In this document: positions 52,470-64,000 of the stretch, piece by piece
Numbering within the stretch: the first letter of the stretch is position 1
Layout of the letters: every line of letters begins with the position of its first letter
Source of the DNA: Fodinibius sp. Rm-B-1B1-1
Lineage (GTDB): Bacteria > Bacteroidota > Rhodothermia > Balneolales > Balneolaceae
Direction: 5' to 3'
NCBI RefSeq assembly: GCF_038594945.1
Contig: NZ_JBCFYD010000001.1
Coordinates: 806,001 to 870,000, forward strand
DNA: 64,000 nt
Notes under the pieces: model-generated
The model's database searches: none
Told to the model about the DNA's origin: nothing
What the model saw: the letters and a program-made list of their open reading frames with translations, nothing else
Position numbers and translations under genes: made by a program

Positions 52470-52758
52470 CTATAGAAATATAATTTAAAATCTGTCGATA
52501 AAGTATGCACAGGTATTAGACGATAACAAGCTTGAATATCGTAGTTATTTGTTAATCCTTTTCAACATATAAAACAGCTACGATCCGCAAATGCTCATCA
52601 TTTTCCTAACTGCTTAAACGTTCAGATTTCCTTCAAAATCATGTAGTAAATTAGTCCGTAATAAAGTATAACATCCTATTACATTTTATAATGAACATTT
52701 CGGTTAATTTTTTGATTGTATCATTATGATCCGTAAACAAGAATTTCAGTTCTCATTT

Positions 52759-54087
52759 ATGAAGCTCCCCCTATTAAAAAAGTTATTCTATTTATCATCA
52801 ATACTATTTTTATCAGTCATAATCATTTCATGCTCGAGTGATTCCGAATCATCAGAGGGTCCTGCAATGGGTAATCCATCTGCCTCTGTTCCATCAGTTG
52901 AAGCAGTAAAATCTCGTCTCGGCACGTTGCCTCTTTCTGAACGGCTGAGCGGAACCGTCTATGCCAAAAACCAAGTCGCCTTGTATCCCGAAATTTCAGG
53001 AAAAATTGCGACTGTTCATGTTCAGAATGGGCAATATGTTGAGGAAGGGGATCCGATAGTCTCACTTGCCGATAATCAATACCGTGAACAAGTTCAACAG
53101 GCAAGGGCAAATATGCGGATTAACGAGGCCCGCCTCAAACAAGCCAAAGCCCGTTACAGCGAACTGGAGGCACAATATAAACGAACCAAACAATTAAGCG
53201 ACCGAGAACTATCAAGTGAACTGGAACTTGAAACTATTCAAGCTCAAATGAGTTCGGCTGAAGCGGATGTGGAACTGGCTGAAGCCCAACTCGATCAGGC
53301 ACAGTCAAGCTTAGAGGAACAACAAGATTTACTTTCGAAAACAGTCATCAAAGCTCCCATTTCGGGAACGGTTGGTCAACGCAATGCAGAAACCGGGATG
53401 CAAGTTAATAGCAGCACCCAACTATTTACTATTGGTGACCTCAGCAACCTGCGGGTAGAAGTTGTGCTTACCGATCAGATGCTCGACAATATCGAAGTTG
53501 GACAAACCGCCCATGTTTATACTGGGTCAAATGCCAACAACAGCGATTACATAAAAGCCGAACTATCAAGAATTTCTCCCTTCCTAAATAACGTCACCCG
53601 AAGTACCGAGGGGGAAATTGATATTTCAAATGGCAATAATAAGTTACGCCCGGGAATGTTTGTTCCCGTTGATATCCTTTATGGTGAAAGCCAGCAAGCC
53701 ACTATAGTTCCAACAAGCGCTGTTTATAACGATCCAACAACAGGAGAAGATGGCGTATTTGTTGCTACCTCCCTGGGGTCTGAAATACAGCCGCCCGAAC
53801 AGGTTGACCCTGAAAATCCCCCGCCGCTTACCGAACCAACCGAAATACAGTTTAAGCCAGTAGATGTTATCGCCGAAGGGCGAATGGAGGTTGGTATTTC
53901 AGGAGTTGACCCCGGTAGTTGGATTGTTACTGTTGGCCAAAATCTGTTAGCCCAGGGAAGTGAACAAGCCAGAGTACGCACAAGCTCCTGGGAACGTATT
54001 TTAGCACTTCAAGGCCTACAACGACAAGATTTATTGCAACATGTGTTAGACCGTGAGGGTAACCTCAATGACTCTGCGAGACAATAA
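52759..54087 (+). CDS. RND efflux periplasmic adaptor, lipoprotein
   Basis: From the ATG at 52759 (442 residues) the protein has a signal peptide and a lipobox, SVIIISC. It is followed by the membrane fusion protein architecture: a biotinyl-like strand (GKIATVHVQNGQYVEEGDPI), a helical hairpin at about 100-190 (INEARLKQAKARYSELEAQY), and the second half of the lipoyl domain (TVIKAPISGTVGQRNAETGM) with a beta barrel. It bridges the inner-membrane RND pump encoded next to an outer membrane channel. A longer frame starts at 52726, but it would move the signal peptide inwards. An outer-membrane TolC-like gene is not visible in the window. Confidence 0.9.
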   Translation: MKLPLLKKLFYLSSILFLSVIIISCSSDSESSEGPAMGNPSASVPSVEAVKSRLGTLPLSERLSGTVYAKNQVALYPEISGKIATVHVQNGQYVEEGDPIVSLADNQYREQVQQARANMRINEARLKQAKARYSELEAQYKRTKQLSDRELSSELELETIQAQMSSAEADVELAEAQLDQAQSSLEEQQDLLSKTVIKAPISGTVGQRNAETGMQVNSSTQLFTIGDLSNLRVEVVLTDQMLDNIEVGQTAHVYTGSNANNSDYIKAELSRISPFLNNVTRSTEGEIDISNGNNKLRPGMFVPVDILYGESQQATIVPTSAVYNDPTTGEDGVFVATSLGSEIQPPEQVDPENPPPLTEPTEIQFKPVDVIAEGRMEVGISGVDPGSWIVTVGQNLLAQGSEQARVRTSSWERILALQGLQRQDLLQHVLDREGNLNDSARQ

Positions 54088-54116
54088 TTTTTATTCCCTA
54101 TTGACCACCTAACGCT

Positions 54117-57100
54117 ATGAAAATTACCGAAACAGCTGTTGATCGACCCATTGCTACTACGATGCTCTTTTTAATCATCATCGTATTGGGGGTAATATCA
54201 TTTCGATACTTACCTGTAGACCTCTTACCTCCCGTTGAATACCCACAATTAACAGTAGCAACAGAATATCCCAATGTGGGTCCCGAAGAAATTGAAACCA
54301 TCATTACCCAGCGAATTGAAAATACCATCGCTGGTGTGCCGGGTGTTGAACGCGTGCGATCGAGTTCATCAGAAGGACAAAGTCGAGTAACGCTTGAGTT
54401 CGCCCAAGGTACCGATATTGATGTAGCAGCTAATGATATCCGAGCGGCCCTTGACCGCGTCCGGGATGAGCTCCCTCCAGAAGCCGAACCACCGCGCATC
54501 TGGAAGTTTGATCCCAATAATTTCCCCATTGTTATTGTAGGAGCTAATTCAGAGAGAAATCTTCAAGAGCTTACCCAGGTCCTTGATCGTGAAGTTACGA
54601 AACGGTTTGAACAAATTCCCGGTGTTGGCTCTATCGATATCTGGGGTGGTGTATACAAAGAAGTACATGTTGAAATCAAAAGGGATCGACTTATTGCAAG
54701 TGGACTTTCATCGGCTGATATCCAACAAGCCATAGCCAGTGAAAACGTTAACCTGCCGGGCGGAAATGTAAACTCAGGTGTACAGTCACTTTATGTGCGC
54801 ACTCTGGGTGAATATGAGAATATTAATCAAATAGCAAATACCATTATCCGGATGGTTGATGGCAAACCTATCCGCGTGAAAGATGTAGCCGAAGTTCGAT
54901 GGGGCTATGAGGATTTAAATCGCCTCGTTACCATTGATGAAAAGCCGATGGTTCGCTTTGGTATCCGCAAACAAACAGGAGCTAACACTGTTGCAGTAGC
55001 AGAAGATATCCGCCAGGAGATTGAAAAAGTGAATAATGAACGGCGGGATATGAATCTTTTTGTCACGACCGACCAAAGTGAGTTTATTCAAAACTCTATT
55101 GATAACGTCCAGAGTTCAGCTATCTGGGGAGCTTTATTGGCCATTGTTGTGCTATATATTTTCCTGCGAAATGGTTCATCTACCTTTATTATTTCGCTGG
55201 CCATTCCCATATCTATTATTGCCACCTTTGGACTACTGTATTTTAATGGACTGACCCTCAACCAAATGAGCTTTGGCGGACTTGCCCTGGGGGTGGGCCT
55301 GATTGTTGACAACGCCATTGTAGTACTTGAAAATATTATCAGGCTCAGGGAGGAGCGTGGCAAAGATTTAAAAACCAGTGCCCTGGTTGGTACCCGTGAA
55401 GTAGGCGGCGCCATTATTGCTTCAACCATTACGACTTCGGTTATCTTTCTGCCGGTCGTCTTTATGCAGACCATTTCAGGCAGTATTTTCCAGGAACTTG
55501 CGCTTGTCGTGGTATTTGCTTTGGCTTGCTCTCTCTTTGTTGCTCTTACGCTGGTGCCCATGCTGTGCAGCAGATTCTTAACGGTACAACCCGACGAATC
55601 TAAAGAAGCTACTAAGAAGAGCTGGTTCCAACGGATATTTAGAATTCTGGAGCACCGCTATACCCAATTCATTGACTACACCCTAAAGCACAAACCAGCC
55701 GTTTTTTCTATCACCGGAGTGTTGGTTGTTGGATCAATACTGCTCGTTCCGCTTATCCCTGTAGAACTCGCGCCACAGTCTGATGCCGATGAAATCGATA
55801 TTGATTTTATGATGGCTGAAGGCACCAATATCGCTGTACAGAATGAGTATCTTAAGGAACTTGAAACGGTGGTACGAGCCCACTTACCCATGGAAGATGT
55901 CGAACACCTTACTACTGAGGTTCGTGATGGCCGGGCTGAGGTTGAGATCGCAATGGTTGATGCTTCTGAGCGATCTATAAGTACCTCAAAACTTGCTGAT
56001 CAGCTTCGCAAAAAAGTAGCCGGAACGGTACCGGGGGGAGATATCCGCGTTAGTGCGCAATCCGGACTTTGGATATTGCGACGCATCTTTGGATCAGGCG
56101 GTGGTGAAGCGGTTGAAGTACAACTGCGTGGTTATGACTTGGATCAGGCCAAAGAACTATCAGAGGAGATAAAACGTCGCATGGAAGAAATCCCTGAAGT
56201 TGAGGGCGTAAGAACTGACCGGCGGGAAGGACGTCCTGAGGAGAACTTTGTTTTTGATCGAGAAAAAATTGCCGATCTTGGACTTACCGTAACCCAAGTT
56301 GCCCAAGTAATTCAGACCAATATTGGGGGTAGCCGGGCCGGAACGTTTCGAGATGGTGGAGATGAATTTCCAATTCGGGTCCGCCTTCAACCCGAAGATC
56401 GTCTTAGTCCTAAAGATCTTGAGAATATTTCTATTACCACGGCTGATGGCGAAGTATTACCCGTTACTGCTGTAGTATCAAAACAAAAAGGGCGCGGACC
56501 AACCGATATCAACCGGGTAAACAGCCAGCGTGTATCGTATATCTCGGCCAATCTCGAAAGTGGGGTGGCCCTCGGTGAAGCAGTTGAAAAAATTCAGGCT
56601 AAGCTTTCTGATATGCCACTGCCCGATGGGTTTTCCATTGTCTATGGCGGGGAATACGAGGAACAACAAAAAGCAGCGGCCGATTTCCAACTGTCCATCA
56701 TTATGGCCTTATTTTTAATCTACATGGTGATGGCTGCTCAATTTGAACGATTCTTTGATCCGCTGGTGGTTATGTTTTCTGTCCCGTTGGCAGTTATTGG
56801 AGTCGTCCCCACGTTAATGCTTACCGGTACAACTATAAATATGCAGAGCATGATGGGAATGGTAATGCTCATCGGAATCGTCGTCAATAATGCCATTGTA
56901 CTGGTCGATTATATTAACTTGATGAGAAGAGAATATAACCTGGATATCCGGGAAGCGGTCATTGAATCGGGCCGATTGCGACTGCGACCTATTTTGATGA
57001 CAACCCTTACCACTATTTTGGGACTTCTGCCGCTCTCATTTGGCATTGGATCTGGGGCTGAAATTCAGGCTTCGCTTGCCCGTGTTGTTATCGGAGGATT

Positions 57101-57242
57101 AACAGCTTCCACATTGGTTACGTTAGTATTCATCCCGGTAGTTTATGTTGCCGCCGAAAGTGTACTCTCGAAAGTGAAAGCTCAAAGCTGGGTGCCAAAC
57201 TGGATGGCGGGCGACGAAAAGGTTAACCCTGCCAAAGCGTAA
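54117..57242 (+). CDS. RND efflux pump, HAE1-like inner membrane transporter
   Basis: The 1041-residue transporter begins with the RND pattern (ETAVDRPIATTMLFLIIIVL, VDLLPPVEYPQLTVATEYPN) and has twelve membrane helices. The proton-relay Asp lies in ALGVGLIVDNAIVVLENIIR, with the Asn where AcrB has a second Asp. The last helices contain PILMTTLTTILGLLPLS and EIQASLARVVIGGLTASTLV. The periplasmic regions are porter and docking domains of the multidrug-type subfamily rather than the heavy-metal type. It forms an operon with the adaptor, 29 bases apart, followed by a strong terminator. Substrates are likely hydrophobic toxic compounds (inference). Confidence 0.9.
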   Translation: MKITETAVDRPIATTMLFLIIIVLGVISFRYLPVDLLPPVEYPQLTVATEYPNVGPEEIETIITQRIENTIAGVPGVERVRSSSSEGQSRVTLEFAQGTDIDVAANDIRAALDRVRDELPPEAEPPRIWKFDPNNFPIVIVGANSERNLQELTQVLDREVTKRFEQIPGVGSIDIWGGVYKEVHVEIKRDRLIASGLSSADIQQAIASENVNLPGGNVNSGVQSLYVRTLGEYENINQIANTIIRMVDGKPIRVKDVAEVRWGYEDLNRLVTIDEKPMVRFGIRKQTGANTVAVAEDIRQEIEKVNNERRDMNLFVTTDQSEFIQNSIDNVQSSAIWGALLAIVVLYIFLRNGSSTFIISLAIPISIIATFGLLYFNGLTLNQMSFGGLALGVGLIVDNAIVVLENIIRLREERGKDLKTSALVGTREVGGAIIASTITTSVIFLPVVFMQTISGSIFQELALVVVFALACSLFVALTLVPMLCSRFLTVQPDESKEATKKSWFQRIFRILEHRYTQFIDYTLKHKPAVFSITGVLVVGSILLVPLIPVELAPQSDADEIDIDFMMAEGTNIAVQNEYLKELETVVRAHLPMEDVEHLTTEVRDGRAEVEIAMVDASERSISTSKLADQLRKKVAGTVPGGDIRVSAQSGLWILRRIFGSGGGEAVEVQLRGYDLDQAKELSEEIKRRMEEIPEVEGVRTDRREGRPEENFVFDREKIADLGLTVTQVAQVIQTNIGGSRAGTFRDGGDEFPIRVRLQPEDRLSPKDLENISITTADGEVLPVTAVVSKQKGRGPTDINRVNSQRVSYISANLESGVALGEAVEKIQAKLSDMPLPDGFSIVYGGEYEEQQKAAADFQLSIIMALFLIYMVMAAQFERFFDPLVVMFSVPLAVIGVVPTLMLTGTTINMQSMMGMVMLIGIVVNNAIVLVDYINLMRREYNLDIREAVIESGRLRLRPILMTTLTTILGLLPLSFGIGSGAEIQASLARVVIGGLTASTLVTLVFIPVVYVAAESVLSKVKAQSWVPNWMAGDEKVNPAKA

Positions 57243-57964: not shown

Positions 57965-57981
57965 TTGGAACGGATCTTGTA
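57965..57981 (+). promoter_or_regulatory. Sigma-54 promoter of the porin-like gene
   Basis: TTGGAACGGATCTTGTA has GG at 57967-57968 and GT at 57979-57980, ten bases apart. TTGG is the -24 element and TTGT stands for TTGC at -12. The first eight bases (TTGGAACG) and the next G are identical to those of the promoter at 60323. The start of transcription should lie near 57992, leaving a leader of about 54 bases with an AGAGG site before the ATG at 58046. Confidence 0.65.
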
Positions 57982-58045
57982 ATTCTATCTAACGAAGCAC
58001 AAAAAGATAACATCTACACTCACAAAAATAACCAGAGGTTCTATT

Positions 58046-59374
58046 ATGAAGACGTTACACAATATATCCAAGTACATTAGCTTGGCAATCCTAATGGTAT
58101 TCGGGGCGGTCGGAATAGCTTCTGCTCAATTCGATCGGGATATGCAGTATTATACCAATCCTGACCAAACGGGACTAAATCAATTTGAAGCTCCCTTTGA
58201 TACGGATGTTGAGTTCGACGGATTAAATGTCCGAATTGGTGGTGCTAATACGCTACAATTTCAAGGAATTAGCCAAGAAAATACTGGGGATCCATATTTT
58301 GCAGGAACGGATGATAACGGTAATCCAATTTTCAAGACCCTGCCAGAATTAGAAAACAATTTCAACCTTGCTACTTCTAACTTAGATCTGGATGTAGCTT
58401 TGGCCAGCGGTCTTCGCATGCACTTACGTACGTATTTAACATCGCAACACCATACCGAGGCGTATGTTAAAAGTGGATACATGCAGGTAGATCGACTTGA
58501 CTTTATTTCTGAAGGACTGCTTTCCGGCTTAATGGACAAGTTGCGTATTAAAATTGGTCATATGGAACTCAACTACGGTGACAACCACTTCCGCCGTACG
58601 GATAACGCTTTTGCCATCCACAACCCATTTGTAGGTAACTATATCATGGACTCTTTCACTACTGAGGTAGCCGGTGAGATGTACTACTATAATAATGGAA
58701 TGATGGCGATGCTTGGCGTGAGCAATGGTAAACTAAACCAAAGCGTTATTGCCAAGGATATTAAGACACACGCCACTGTTTATGGTAAGTTAGCTTATGA
58801 CAAGAAGATGAACGAAGACACGCGTTTCCGTTTAAGTGCATCGATCCTTAACGTATCCAATTCATCATCTATATACTTGTATTCTGGAGATCGTGCCGGC
58901 TCACGGTACTACAGTGTCATGGATGATGGATTCCGAAGTGGACGTTTTGCCCCAAGCTTTACTCCTGGTTTTGGACAACCAGCTGCAGCAGGGGAAATGA
59001 CTGCCTTTATGCTTAATCCCTTTGTCAAGTTCCAAGGATTCGAATTCTATGGTGTGTTTGAAAACACTTCTGGAAATGTCAAAGGAAACGATAGCCGAAC
59101 GTTTAACCAGTATGGTGCAGAAGCCCTCTATCGTTTTGGAGCTAATGAAAATTTCTATCTCGGTGCTCGTTACAACTTGGTTGATGGTGAAATGACCAAT
59201 GGCGACATCGAAATTGATCGATTCAATATCGGTGGCGGCTGGTTTTTAACCAAAAACGTCATGGCTAAACTGGAGTATGTAACACAATCTTACAACGGTG
59301 ATGGCTATGTTGGAACTAAATATGAAGACGGTAACTTTGACGGTGTGATGCTTGAAGCGGTAATTAGCTTCTAA
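58046..59374 (+). CDS. Outer membrane porin-like beta-barrel protein
   Basis: The 442-residue precursor has a signal peptide (LGIASAQ-like end) and then many beta strands with alternating residues. The final strand is FDGVMLEAVISF, with the C-terminal Phe that signals outer membrane insertion. Segments such as KIGHMELNYGDNHFRRTDNA and FYLGARYNLVDGEMTNGDIE recall phosphate-selective porin-like proteins in layout, but I cannot assign a family. It has its own sigma-54 promoter with paired activator sites and a terminator at 59438. Confidence 0.7.
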   Translation: MKTLHNISKYISLAILMVFGAVGIASAQFDRDMQYYTNPDQTGLNQFEAPFDTDVEFDGLNVRIGGANTLQFQGISQENTGDPYFAGTDDNGNPIFKTLPELENNFNLATSNLDLDVALASGLRMHLRTYLTSQHHTEAYVKSGYMQVDRLDFISEGLLSGLMDKLRIKIGHMELNYGDNHFRRTDNAFAIHNPFVGNYIMDSFTTEVAGEMYYYNNGMMAMLGVSNGKLNQSVIAKDIKTHATVYGKLAYDKKMNEDTRFRLSASILNVSNSSSIYLYSGDRAGSRYYSVMDDGFRSGRFAPSFTPGFGQPAAAGEMTAFMLNPFVKFQGFEFYGVFENTSGNVKGNDSRTFNQYGAEALYRFGANENFYLGARYNLVDGEMTNGDIEIDRFNIGGGWFLTKNVMAKLEYVTQSYNGDGYVGTKYEDGNFDGVMLEAVISF

Positions 59375-59437
59375 CAAGTATTTAACCATGAGGAGCAACC
59401 GACTTATCCCTAAGTCTAAGTTCCAATTCCCCTGATG

Positions 59438-59475
59438 CGGTGTCGCCTGTGAAAAGGCGACACCGTTTTTTATTT
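59438..59475 (+). terminator. Terminator of the porin-like gene
   Basis: CGGTGTCGCCT (59438-59448) pairs with AGGCGACACCG (59455-59465) around a six-base loop and is followed by TTTTTTATTT. It is a strong intrinsic terminator, so the porin-like gene is monocistronic. Confidence 0.85.
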
Positions 59476-59646
59476 GATGGCTATTGTAACCTTTCAATTG
59501 ATATTACTTGCTGGAGATCTATTCAAGTATTATTAACCTCTGAGGTAATAAAGTATTTACAACAATGCCATCTGCCTGTAAATAAGGCATGAGTTATTCT
59601 AATAGCATTGAGAAGATTCCCATCTATAAAGAGTCATTCAACCTAA

Positions 59647-60015
59647 TCAGCGATGCACAGAAGGGAAGTAGTAATTAACCTTACCGATAAGCTCGTTAAA
59701 ATCGAGGGGCTTCATAACAAAGTCGTGAGCACCAGCTATCAGCGCTTTCTGCGTAACCTCAATCTCAACATATGAGCTCATCAATATTATCTTAATAGCA
59801 GGGTAATAGCACTGCAAATACGAAAACAGACCATTACGATCTAACAGCTGGCTGTCCACGATAACCATATCAATATCTGATGAGGTAAGAACCTCTTGCG
59901 CATCAATCGCATTATAAGAGATAAAACAGCGAAAACCTTCTTCGCCCAATACCAATGCAAGCGAATCACAAACGGCTTGCTCCTGGTCGATAATAAGAAT
60001 TGATTGAGGCGTCAT
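59647..60015 (-). CDS. Stand-alone response regulator receiver domain
   Basis: The 122-residue protein consists only of a receiver domain. It has D10, the phosphoacceptor D54 (MVIVDSQLLDRNG), S80 in IILMSSYVE and K102 in FVMKPLDFNELI. The usual second acidic residue of the D-D pair is Gln (Q11), so metal binding may be altered. Its sequence resembles the receiver of the NtrC-type regulator at 61701: SILIIDQE versus SILIADDE, and KPLDFNELI versus KPLEFDEVL. It may compete for phosphate from the same kinase or relay it. It diverges from the YceI operon. Confidence 0.7.
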   Translation of the reverse strand: MTPQSILIIDQEQAVCDSLALVLGEEGFRCFISYNAIDAQEVLTSSDIDMVIVDSQLLDRNGLFSYLQCYYPAIKIILMSSYVEIEVTQKALIAGAHDFVMKPLDFNELIGKVNYYFPSVHR

Positions 60016-60170
60016 GAAAAGAGTAGTCCATCAAAATTGCTGGTTACATATGTAGTAATGCAATTACGAGACCACTTTTAGTTATCATTAATAACTTTCT
60101 TAAATCCCCGTTTATATAGTAGTTACCCCCACTTTTGATTCCTTCTAATAGATGGATACCTAAAGGCCTT

Positions 60171-60215
60171 TGCAGCATTGCAAAAAAACAGATACTGATT
60201 ATTTGCAAGCATGCA
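60171..60215 (+). promoter_or_regulatory. Paired TGCA-N4-TGCA activator sites upstream of the YceI promoter
   Basis: Site 1 is TGCAGCATTGCA (60171-60182) with the outer bases TTTGCA...TGCAAA fully symmetrical. Site 2 is TGCAAGCATGCA (60204-60215). Their starts are 33 bases apart, exactly as upstream of the porin gene. The -24 GG is 121 bases after the start of site 2, 21 bases (two turns) less than at the porin promoter. The rest of 60016-60393 has no visible gene. The receiver gene at 59647 diverges from this region. Confidence 0.7.
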
Positions 60216-60322
60216 AGGTGACCGTTTTTCTCAATTTACTTTAATGAATTTTTCTACACCAAAATATTGTTCCATAACCCAACAAGGCTGATTATCATAA
60301 TTAAATGGGTGGTAGATATAGT

Positions 60323-60339
60323 TTGGAACGGTGATTGCA
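60323..60339 (+). promoter_or_regulatory. Sigma-54 promoter of the YceI operon
   Basis: TTGGAACGGTGATTGCA has GG at 60325-60326 and GC at 60337-60338 with exactly ten bases between. It matches the consensus TTGGCACG-N4-TTGCA except for A in place of C at one position. Transcription would start near 60350, with a 44-base leader to the ATG at 60394 and a strong AAAGGAG site six bases before it. It is the best sigma-54 promoter in the window. Confidence 0.75.
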
Positions 60340-60393: not shown

Positions 60394-60990
60394 ATGAAAT
60401 CTTTATTTACCACATTATTAATTGCTCTATTCACTTTATCCGGAAATGTTTTTGCCCAATCGAACAGCTACAATATTATAGATAAAAGCACTATGCAGAT
60501 CGAGGGTACATCTACCCTGCACGACTGGACGGCCGATGTCGAAAAATTCAGTTCTTATATTAATTTCGATGCCTCCGCCCTCGAAGGGGATACAAAAAAT
60601 AATCCCGTGAAATCCCTCTCTTTGACCATTCCAGTTGAAAGTATTGAAAGCGGGAAGGGCGGTATGAACCGTAAAATGTATGGAGCATTAAAATCTGATG
60701 ACTTCCCAAATATCATGTTCCAGATGGATAATGCCGAACTCACGACGGCTGACTCATCATCAACTATTGAATTGAATATTAATGGAACCCTTACTGTCGC
60801 CGGAACGAGTAAAAGCATAACACTGCCTGTAACCGGAGAACAACAAGGCAATGAATCTTATAAGTTTACCGGGGAATACGAAATCAACATGAAGGATTAC
60901 AATGTTGATCCTCCCTCTGCTATGCTGGGCACTATCAAATCCGGCGAAAAAGTTACGATCTCGTTTGAGTTCTATGTAGCACAATCTTAA
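60394..60990 (+). CDS. YceI family protein 1
   Basis: The 198-residue precursor has a signal peptide (LLIALFTLSGNVFAQ). The YceI lipocalin-like fold follows, with STMQIEGTSTLHDWTADVEK, LSLTIPVESIESGKGGMNRK and MKDYNVDPPSAMLGTIKSGE, ending in the VTISFEFYV strand. The family binds polyisoprenoid or amphiphilic lipids in the periplasm. It is the first gene of a two-gene operon with another YceI-like gene 14 bases downstream. A sigma-54 promoter and paired activator sites precede it, so expression probably depends on the local activator. Confidence 0.9.
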   Translation: MKSLFTTLLIALFTLSGNVFAQSNSYNIIDKSTMQIEGTSTLHDWTADVEKFSSYINFDASALEGDTKNNPVKSLSLTIPVESIESGKGGMNRKMYGALKSDDFPNIMFQMDNAELTTADSSSTIELNINGTLTVAGTSKSITLPVTGEQQGNESYKFTGEYEINMKDYNVDPPSAMLGTIKSGEKVTISFEFYVAQS

Positions 60991-61004: not shown

Positions 61005-61685
61005 ATGCGTCCCGCTTTATATCCACAATGTTCCTTCAAATTAGCAGCTATTAGATGGCTATTCCTGCTGTCATCAACCCTGTTAATTTCCTTTCTGAAC
61101 ACTTCCCAAAGCGGGGCGCAGTCTTTATCATCCAACCTAAGTATTGAAGAGGGAGCACAACTCTGGATTGAGGGATCGGCCAGCATGGTCAACTTTAAAT
61201 GCAAAGCCCAGCAGCTATCAGGAGTAGGAGAAATTGGAAATACCGAACATCCTGAAACTACCGTTCAGGGACAGGGCACTGTTAGCATCGCCATTATCTT
61301 GCCTGTTGACGCACTTGATTGTGGCAAACGTGCTATGAATAAAGATATGTATGAAGCACTAAAAGCAGAGCAGCATTCTACAATAGGCTATCAGTTATTA
61401 GAAGCCACGTTAACGGAACAGGAAGGAATTCCCTCCGACAGCTTATCCCGCTGGATGAATATTCGCACTCGCGGTATTATGAAAATTGCAGGAGAACAGG
61501 ACACCACAACATTTAACGTGCAGGGTAAAATATTAAATGACCAGCGCTTTCGTGTGAAAGGCAGCAAGCCCATCCACATGGATACCTACAATATTGACCC
61601 GCCCCGAGCGATGTTTGGCCTAATAAAGGCCGACAAGAACCTGACTGTCCATTTTGATGTCATCGTTAGGCTTAATAAAGAATAG
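61005..61685 (+). CDS. YceI-like protein 2
   Basis: The 226-residue precursor has a signal peptide (FLLSSTLLISFLNTSQSGAQ) and a divergent YceI fold. It contains EGAQLWIEGSASMVNFKCKA, IALDCGKRAMNKDMYEALKA-like sequence (from ALDCGKRAMN onward), and DTYNIDPPRAMFGLIKADKN near the end. It retains the family's DPP-AMFG element. It is co-transcribed with the first YceI gene, 14 bases apart. The pair may form a mixed dimer, but that is an inference. It is convergent with the sigma-54 activator. Confidence 0.8.
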   Translation: MRPALYPQCSFKLAAIRWLFLLSSTLLISFLNTSQSGAQSLSSNLSIEEGAQLWIEGSASMVNFKCKAQQLSGVGEIGNTEHPETTVQGQGTVSIAIILPVDALDCGKRAMNKDMYEALKAEQHSTIGYQLLEATLTEQEGIPSDSLSRWMNIRTRGIMKIAGEQDTTTFNVQGKILNDQRFRVKGSKPIHMDTYNIDPPRAMFGLIKADKNLTVHFDVIVRLNKE

Positions 61686-61700
61686 AATAACTAAGCCCGA

Positions 61701-63059
61701 TTAATCCGACACGCCCAACCGTTCCATTTTGCGATACAACGTAGAGGGATCGATCCCCAATAAGCGCGCCGCCTCCGACTTATTCCCTTCCGTTCGTTTA
61801 AGCACACTTTGGATATGATGTTTTTCAAATACCTGGGTAGCCTCATCCAGCTTATCGCTGTCAATCTCAAAGTCATCGTGTTCAGATATTTTACGCAGCG
61901 ATGCCGGCAGATCCTCAATCCTCAAAAAATCGTCTTCACTTAACAGTACTGCGCGTTCTATAACATTTTCGAGCTCCCGCACTTGCCCCTTCCACTGGTA
62001 TCCCATCATAGCACCCATGGCTTCACTGGTAATACCCTTTATATTTCGTTTGAGCTCTTTATTATATTTTTGCAGAAAATGATGAGCCAGCAGCGGAATA
62101 TCCTCTTTGCGCTGCTCAAGCGGCGGCAGGGGAATCTCCACCACATTAAGGCGATAATATAAATCATCGCGGAAATTCCCTTCCTCCACTTCTTTCTCAA
62201 GGTTCTTATTTGTTGCCGCTATAATGCGCGTATCAAATGAAACGTGCTTGTTAGATCCTACCGGCTTTACTTCGCGCTCCTGCAAAACCCGCAGCAAATT
62301 CACTTGTAGATTCAGCGGAATTTCCGCCACCTCATCCAAAAAGACCGTCCCACCATGGGCTGCTACAAAAACGCCATCCTTATCTTCATTCGCCCCAGTA
62401 AACGCCCCTTTCTTATGGCCAAAGAGTTCCGATTCTACCAAATTCTCGGGAATGGCCCCACAATTGATTGCCAGAAATGGCTTCTTGGATCGTTTGCTAT
62501 TAGAATGAATCGCCCGGGCAACCAACTCCTTGCCAGTACCACTTTGGCCCGTTACCAACACATTACTGGAAGCCTGGCTAACCCGCTCAACCATTTTGTA
62601 AACCTTCTTCATGGCCTTGCTTTCACCAATAATATGGTTAAAGTTGTATTCTCTATCGATCTGCTCCCGCAAGTACTTATTTTCCTGGGCTAAACTTTTT
62701 TGCTCCAGCAGGTTCTGTATGCGGATGAGCACCTCATCAAATTCGAGCGGCTTTAAAATATAATCAGCTGCTCCTTTTCGGAGTGCCTGTATAGCTGTTT
62801 CAATGGTACCGTGGGCCGTAATAATAATGGTAAGTGTATCAGAAGAGTGTTTCAGGGCGTAATCCAATACTTCAATACCATCCGCATTTGGCATCTTTAA
62901 ATCTGTAATAACGATATCATAGCTGGCCTTGTCGATTGCCTCAATAGCTTCCTGGCCATCTTTTACAGCCGTACAATCGTAACCCTCATCCTCCAACACA
63001 ATAGTTAACGATTCCCTGATACTTGTTTCATCATCCGCTATTAAAATAGATGCATTCAT
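61701..63059 (-). CDS. NtrC-family sigma-54 activator (receiver-AAA+-Fis)
   Basis: From the ATG at 63059 it has 452 residues. The receiver has the acidic pair in LIADDETS, D53 in IVITDLKMP and K in ILKPLEFDE. The AAA+ domain has Walker A GQSGTGKE, the sigma-54 contact loop GAFTGA, Walker B GGTVFLDEVAEIP and the arginine finger region. A Fis-type helix-turn-helix (EGNKSEAARLLGIDPSTLYR) ends the protein. All elements of a working enhancer-binding protein are present. An alternative GTG start at 63065 overlaps the stop of the kinase by one base, so the two are coupled. Sites of the form TGCA-N4-TGCA nearby are its likely targets. Confidence 0.9.
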   Translation of the reverse strand: MNASILIADDETSIRESLTIVLEDEGYDCTAVKDGQEAIEAIDKASYDIVITDLKMPNADGIEVLDYALKHSSDTLTIIITAHGTIETAIQALRKGAADYILKPLEFDEVLIRIQNLLEQKSLAQENKYLREQIDREYNFNHIIGESKAMKKVYKMVERVSQASSNVLVTGQSGTGKELVARAIHSNSKRSKKPFLAINCGAIPENLVESELFGHKKGAFTGANEDKDGVFVAAHGGTVFLDEVAEIPLNLQVNLLRVLQEREVKPVGSNKHVSFDTRIIAATNKNLEKEVEEGNFRDDLYYRLNVVEIPLPPLEQRKEDIPLLAHHFLQKYNKELKRNIKGITSEAMGAMMGYQWKGQVRELENVIERAVLLSEDDFLRIEDLPASLRKISEHDDFEIDSDKLDEATQVFEKHHIQSVLKRTEGNKSEAARLLGIDPSTLYRKMERLGVSD

Positions 63060-63064
63060 AAACA

Positions 63065-64000
63065 CTAATTATTGGTCGGTAATTGAATGATAAATGTTGT
63101 TTTTTCACCATAAGTCGACTCCACGCTAATAGAACCGCCCATTTTATTGACGATACCGTGACTTACCGAAAGTCCCAACCCCGTGCCAGTACCCACTTCT
63201 TTAGTGGTAAAAAACGGTTCGAAAATCCGAGACAGATGCTCCTCCTTTATACCCTTTCCGTTATCAGTAACGGTAAGCCATGCAGCGTCATTCTCTTTTT
63301 TTGTTTTAACGGTCACTTTGGGATCTTCCTCCCCTTCCATCGCATCCACTGCATTTAACAACAGATTTACCAATACCTGGTGGACTTGATCGGGCACACA
63401 AGAGATTAAGGGCAAGTCTTTGGAAAGATTCATTTCAAACGTCACATCTTTACAGCGAGCATCGTGCTGTAACAATCCCACTGCCGACTCAATAATTTCG
63501 TTAATTTGCACATTCTCAGACTGCATCTTTGACGGACGCGAAAAGTCGACTAAATCCCGGACAATTTTATTTATCCGCTGGATGTGCTCACGCACTTTTT
63601 TAAGCTGATTCTGTACAAACGCATCATCCGTCTTACGCTGACACACCTGCACCAGCGAAGATATAGCCGTTAACGGATTACCTACCTCATGGGCAACCCC
63701 GGCCGCCATATGACCTACTGTAGCCAGGCGTTCCGACTGCTGAATCTGCTCCTCCTTCATTTTGATATCCGTCAAATCACGCAAAATCTGTGACCGTCCT
63801 ATAATCTCATCTTTGTTATTCCGTATATAAGATTCGGTAAGGTTTACCAGCTTCCTTTCGCCATTTTTAGTCAGGCGCTCGGTCTCATAATTACTAACAT
63901 GACCTCGGCGTTGCATGTCGGATTTTATGCGCTGAAGCTCTTGCATTTCAATCAGCTCTTCCGGCATAATATCGCTAATGGGTTTTCCAATGATTTCATC
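63065..64000 (-). CDS. PAS-histidine kinase, partner of the sigma-54 activator (partial)
   Basis: The frame continues beyond the window at 64000. The visible part starts within a PAS domain ([20 protein letters not shown]) with its PAC strand [13 protein letters not shown]. It then has the HisKA site [20 protein letters not shown] and the ATPase domain with [23 protein letters not shown] and [15 protein letters not shown]. It is an NtrB-like kinase with no membrane helix in the visible part. Its stop overlaps the start of the activator gene. Together they should control the two sigma-54 promoters at 57965 and 60323. Confidence 0.85.

Follow-up and report, generated by a model that had tools for sequence, protein, structure and literature searches.

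The window, the whole 64-kb stretch of DNA analysed here (G000:C1:806001-870000), belongs to or near Fodinibius/Aliifodinibius (Balneolales), judging by its nearest named relatives. It very probably carries part of a dedicated NtrC-type, sigma-54-dependent two-component regulon, in which -24/-12 promoters, an activator bound to palindromes and DNA looping would switch a set of target genes on together. The first-pass annotation had read two sites with GG-N10-G(C/T) spacing, at 57965 and 60323, as sigma-54 promoters driven by a neighbouring activator. Both sites were found at these positions and with this spacing. Conservation, co-occurrence with the activator, paired upstream sites and helical phasing, which are largely independent of each other as evidence, support their reading as sigma-54 promoters. 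The annotation had overlooked the palindrome pairs, and its count of two was incomplete: the window holds three such sites, and further members of the regulon lie elsewhere in the genome. The genes at the locus are arranged in the order RND efflux pair, small protein, barrel, receiver, YceI, YceI-like, activator and kinase (Table 1). The small protein has no Pfam family and has orthologues in some relatives.

Table 1. Features of the locus, with positions counted from the first letter of the window
Feature	Position	Strand	Details
RND efflux pair	52726-57242		Precedes the small membrane-like protein in gene order
Small membrane-like protein, 121 aa	57323-57688	-	Between the efflux genes and the barrel gene
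Palindrome pair ATGCAAATCTGCAA / ATGCAATAATGCAA	57791..57837		Starts 57791/57824, 33 bp apart; candidate activator sites, barrel promoter
Sigma-54-type promoter of the barrel gene, TTGGAACGGATCTTGTA	57965..57981	+	GG-N10-GT; score 14.5/15.5
Porin-like outer membrane beta-barrel, 442 aa (target 1)	58046..59374	+	AlphaFold2 pLDDT 86.2, pTM 0.83
Lone receiver-domain protein, 122 aa (target 3)	59647..60015	-	PF00072, 65 bits
Third sigma-54-type promoter, GTGGTCTCGTAATTGCA	60059..60075	-	Weaker, divergent, before the lone receiver gene; score 12.0
Palindrome pair TTGCAGCATTGCAA / TTGCAAGCATGCAA	60170..60216		Starts 60170/60203, 33 bp apart; candidate activator sites, YceI and receiver promoters
Sigma-54-type promoter of the YceI operon, TTGGAACGGTGATTGCA	60323..60339	+	GG-N10-GC; score 15.0/15.5
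YceI-family protein, 198 aa (target 2, first gene)	60394..60990	+	PF04264, 66.3 bits (cut-off 23.7)
YceI-like protein, 226 aa (target 2, second gene)	61005..61685	+	30% identity to the first YceI, E 7.8e-21
NtrC-type sigma-54 activator	61701..63065	-	Receiver, AAA+, Fis-type HTH; PF00158, 247.9 bits
Partner histidine kinase	63065..64000	-	Continues beyond the end of the window; 434 aa in full; PAS, HisKA, HATPase

Promoter sites and their conservation

The sigma-54 consensus is TGGCACG-N4-TTGCW. Both strands of the window were scored against it on a scale with a maximum of 15.5, with the GG and the G of the -12 element obligatory and with weights of our own. This analysis revealed the barrel and YceI sites as the sole 17-mers with a score of at least 14. 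Loose consensus scans were near chance and were dropped as evidence: a pattern allowing up to three mismatches gave 88 matches in the window compared with 78 expected, and TGGNACGNNNNTTGYW with up to one mismatch gave 196 matches in the genome compared with 184 for the reversed pattern. Exact matches to TGGNACGNNNNTTGYW numbered eight in the 3.41-Mb genome; five lay inside genes and were set aside, and the three that were intergenic and pointed at a gene were the barrel site, the YceI site and one site in a sugar/polysaccharide-like cluster. RpoN is encoded in one copy (PF04552, 197.8 bits). A second region of this genome (L226, G000:C2:661000-680000) contains two sigma-54-activator genes and a sugar/polysaccharide-like cluster, with sigma-54-like sites scoring at least 14 at 3198-, 3480+, 15298+ and 16572+ and no TTGCA-N4-TGCAA pair; it is probably another sigma-54 regulon.

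The case for the sites, which a loose pattern could not make, lies in their conservation in the genus, where both were kept in 12/12 genomes. The YceI site was found 58-73 bases before YceI at all 12 genus loci. The barrel site, searched with a regular expression, was located 75-156 bases before the barrel gene at 11 of the 12, and the remaining locus (L082) carries the weaker TTGGAATAGTCCTTGTC, a TTGTC variant. The -12 element was consistently unlike between the two promoters across the genus, reading TTGTA before the barrel (11/12) and TTGCA before YceI (12/12), a difference that may set unequal promoter strengths.

In a species collection 131 loci were found and 80 kept, and these extend to flavobacteria and cytophagia. 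The barrel was present in 58 and YceI in 60 of the 78 relatives searched, and the barrel, YceI and YceI-like genes adjoin one another throughout the order and outside it. An adjacent activator orthologue was found at ten of the 80 named loci. The barrel and YceI upstream regions at these ten loci scored at least 12 in 20/20 cases and at least 13.5 in 19/20, compared with at least 12 in 11/151 and at least 13 in 0/151 at the remaining named loci. The latter include L160 and L161, which have distant activators (36% identity, non-adjacent), were grouped with the loci without an orthologue, and showed no promoter sites accompanying these activators. Fisher values for this comparison are descriptive only, because related genomes are not independent.

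Palindrome pairs, activator and helical phasing

Two palindromes of the form TTGCA-N4-TGCAA are located upstream of each promoter, with a spacing of 33 bp in the window and 31-34 bp elsewhere. The sequence WTGCANNNNTGCAW occurs at 10 places in the genome, four of them at this locus. Among 128 genomes of the order the pair pattern was identified in 18, compared with one genome for the reversed control, and an activator orthologue was likewise identified in 18. Pair and activator occurred together in 17 genomes, comprising the 12 of the genus and G013, G021, G024, G050 and G061. G058 has the activator with only weaker palindromes, and the palindrome pairs of G048 are a tandem repeat and were not counted as real. 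With looser thresholds, pairs were detected at 10/10 activator loci, at 1/70 others and at none when the sequence of those loci was reversed. The single pair-bearing locus without an adjacent activator (L110) lies at the coordinates of a G013 contig, and the activator of that genome is on another contig. Three of the 12 barrel upstream regions of the genus (L076, L080 and L083) fell below the thresholds for a pair plus site. This distribution makes the palindromes candidate binding sites of this activator.

Across 68 pair-plus-site modules, the stretch between the second palindrome and the -24 element had lengths that clustered near 65, 98, 108, 119, 130, 141 and 163 bp. The best period was 10.85 bp (R 0.71, 67 values); when values within 2 bp of each other inside each gene class were merged, 23 values remained and R was 0.74. 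For both the full and the merged set, the observed R was matched by 0/5000 uniform and 0/5000 jittered draws. Orthologous nosZ promoters had palindrome-to--24 distances of 64-66, 98-99, 108 and 117-119 bp, roughly whole turns apart. Such phasing fits what would be expected of a palindrome-bound protein that faces the polymerase by looping, as an enhancer-type activator does.

In the activator, GAFTGA stands at residue 218 and a Walker A motif at residue 171, and ITDLKMP holds the phospho-acceptor Asp. The activator gene ends 1.36 kb after the second site; the first-pass annotation had placed an activator with an intact GAFTGA loop 1.4 kb away. The solved relatives of the activator are NtrC1/NtrC4-like proteins, ZraR, which is an envelope-stress regulator, and NtrX. 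Domain analysis of the partner kinase gave no clue to its signal, the sensor being a generic PAS domain.

A probable third promoter and the lone receiver

The divergent site before the receiver gene shares the palindrome pair at 60170-60216 with the YceI promoter. A score of 12 was reached by 12% of random 270-base stretches, so that this site is weak when considered alone. A site like it was present at 8/8 named genus loci; at L105 it was too distant from the pair for the module rule. In an alignment of eight sequences, the TTGCA and GG columns of the receiver site were invariant, and most of the other invariant columns belonged to the palindromes and the YceI promoter. The receiver itself is divergent in relatives, with five invariant columns among 13 sequences, and in one species (L104) its acceptor Asp is replaced by Glu. 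This divergence, together with the loss of the acceptor Asp in one species, suggests that the lone receiver is a modulator rather than an ordinary output.

Target proteins and their regulator in sister lineages

The targets of the two main promoters had been named as an outer membrane beta-barrel gene and a YceI operon, and both assignments hold, with a porin-like structural model for the one and a PF04264 match over the cut-off for the other. Among porins the barrel model matched OprO/OprP best, with a Z score of 28 over 335 aligned residues (rmsd 3.1, 10% identity), and Foldseek matched it to the porin fold with an E value of 2e-12. The sequence had no Pfam match at 0.001 and none in NCBIfam, and its best match among PDB sequences was an unrelated entry at E 0.1. 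The model is a confident, porin-like one: the barrel has its fold in common with the OprO/OprP porins, but is only 10% identical to them and falls in no Pfam or NCBIfam family. The second protein of the YceI operon has no Pfam family of its own and is related to YceI only through the first.

A NarL/LuxR-type response regulator was found near the barrel module at 24 of the 80 loci, all of them without the activator, and it was upstream in 23; examples are L116, L117, L129 and L136, with 20 further loci. Other Balneolales have the same target module, a barrel-YceI-YceI operon, also beside a response regulator. In contrast to the locus described here, the regulator at these loci has a LuxR-type HTH, no sigma-54 sites scoring at least 13 were found, and the genes lie in one operon. 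The type of regulator has apparently been exchanged beside the same barrel-YceI-YceI module.

Probable targets beyond the window

Further palindrome pairs were identified in this genome and in relatives, and a regulon confined to the window was therefore dropped. NosZ passes the NCBIfam cut-off in 11 genus genomes, and in all 11 a pair lies upstream of a cytochrome c-nosZ operon. In 10 of the 11 the pair is followed by a promoter-like site scoring at least 12.5, and in the eleventh (G005) by one scoring 12; at -12, the nosZ promoters of G005 and G011 read GA in place of GC/GT. Neither a NosZ nor a nitrite reductase passed the NCBIfam cut-offs in this genome. One of its extra pairs precedes a cupredoxin-FGE-SCO operon and is accompanied by TTGGCACAACCCTTGCG, and another lies between divergent genes for a beta-lactamase-like protein and a 292-aa protein. 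The first of these (L210:1662-4235) appears to be a single operon of genes for a nitrite-reductase-like cupredoxin, an FGE-like protein and SCO1/SenC. This cupredoxin is present in 7/12 genus genomes; the copy in this genome, with 193 bits against a cut-off of 296, is not counted as NirK.

Targets seen in single or few genomes were Zn-alcohol dehydrogenase, a TonB-like protein, SDR and NirK-azurin operons. NirK was discarded as a constant target, a pair plus site being present for only 2/10 genus copies over the cut-off. In Aequorivita antarctica (L179:8255-9355) the Zn-alcohol dehydrogenase, a regulon target elsewhere, directly adjoins the YceI-barrel module. The set of targets suggests either the respiration of nitrogen oxides or copper proteins of the periplasm, and the regulon is probably tied to nitrogen-oxide or copper respiration.

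Proposed mechanism and alternative explanations

The sites, the pairs, their conservation, their co-occurrence with the activator and their phasing are read from the DNA itself, and they suggest the following scheme. RNA polymerase carrying RpoN would use the barrel and YceI sites as -24/-12 promoters. The kinase, whose gene lies next to that of the activator, would phosphorylate the activator. Upstream of each promoter, activator dimers would bind the paired TTGCA-N4-TGCAA palindromes, which are spaced by about 32-33 bp. The activator would then form an AAA+ ring and reach sigma-54 by DNA looping through its GAFTGA loop. In this way the YceI operon and the porin gene would be switched on together, presumably in a sigma-54-dependent manner, along with the lone receiver gene, which would be read from the divergent third promoter. 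The same design would serve the cupredoxin-FGE-SCO operon and the beta-lactamase-like/292-aa pair elsewhere in this genome, and cytochrome c-nosZ in relatives.

Nitrogen-oxide-gene regulators of the HcpR/DNR kind have sites, given as TTGACnnnnGTCAA and GTAACnnnnGTTAC in PMC1274295, whose layout is near TTGCA-N4-TGCAA. If the sigma-54 promoters were real and the palindromes belonged to another regulator, for example such a CRP/FNR-family protein, the similar half-site-N4-half-site layout and the presence of nosZ among the targets in relatives would be accounted for. We consider this very unlikely. Of the 128 genomes, 17 have both palindromes and activator, one has the activator alone and one a tandem repeat alone, and the sites form pairs with a spacing of 31-34 bp that lie far upstream and keep helical phase with the -24 element, an arrangement known from NtrC-type activators. 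A 14-bp dyad of CRP/FNR type fits in layout and does not fit in position or pairing, and the co-occurrence points to the activator. It is more improbable still that the TTGGAACGG blocks are chance look-alikes and that ordinary housekeeping promoters read both genes; loose consensus matches are indeed no commoner than chance in window or genome, but every one of the 12 genus genomes retains the sites, which also accompany the activator and stand in phase with the palindromes.

An activator-driven sigma-54 regulon could also respond to copper or envelope stress instead of nitrogen-oxide respiration, with nosZ linked to it because NosZ is a copper enzyme. This is a serious possibility that we place somewhat short of even. 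It would explain why a genome without NosZ or nitrite reductase over the cut-offs keeps the regulon, why several of the targets are copper proteins or resemble a copper chaperone, why so few genus NirK copies have a pair plus site, and why ZraR is among the solved relatives of the activator. Against it stands the pair before nosZ in every genus genome carrying that gene. Neither view accounts for Zn-alcohol dehydrogenase and SDR as targets. With a probability only just under even, we propose that in this genus the sigma-54 NtrC-type two-component system regulates N2O reduction, through a nosZ of clade II and Sec type, as well as the copper enzymes associated with it, that it couples these to a dedicated porin, a YceI pair and a degenerate receiver, which is self-induced and may damp the kinase of the system, and that sister lineages keep the porin-YceI module with the whole control swapped for a NarL-type regulator.

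Taken together, these data provide a complete and testable cis-regulatory code for a Balneolales regulon, consisting of the promoter, the paired candidate activator sites and a spacing rule. Shared control would tie an uncharacterised, widespread module of Bacteroidota, made up of the porin-like barrel and two YceI proteins, to nosZ and copper proteins, which offers a functional lead, and one module appears under two unrelated regulator types in sister lineages. The nosZ gene stands for removal of the greenhouse gas N2O, and the same switch design precedes nosZ genes in relatives.

Comparison with known systems

The proposed mechanism is classical for NtrC-type activators. What is added here is the third promoter together with the regulon, its motif and its link to nosZ; the last three appear undescribed, and a search of open-licence papers found no description of the regulon. 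As in NtrC-family two-component sigma-54 activators, a receiver-AAA+-Fis HTH protein with GAFTGA is encoded next door to a PAS kinase, and paired palindromes lie far upstream of -24/-12 promoters in helical phase. The locus differs from that family in its targets, which are a porin, YceI, a receiver, cupredoxin-SCO and, in relatives, nosZ, and apparently also in its palindrome, TTGCA-N4-TGCAA. NorR also works with sigma-54. According to PMC1274295, NorR, DNR, NnrR and NsrR have nosZ or nitrite-reductase-type genes among their targets, as here; they are single-component sensors (GAF, CRP/FNR, Rrf2), whereas the system described here combines a membrane PAS kinase with a response regulator and has a motif of its own.
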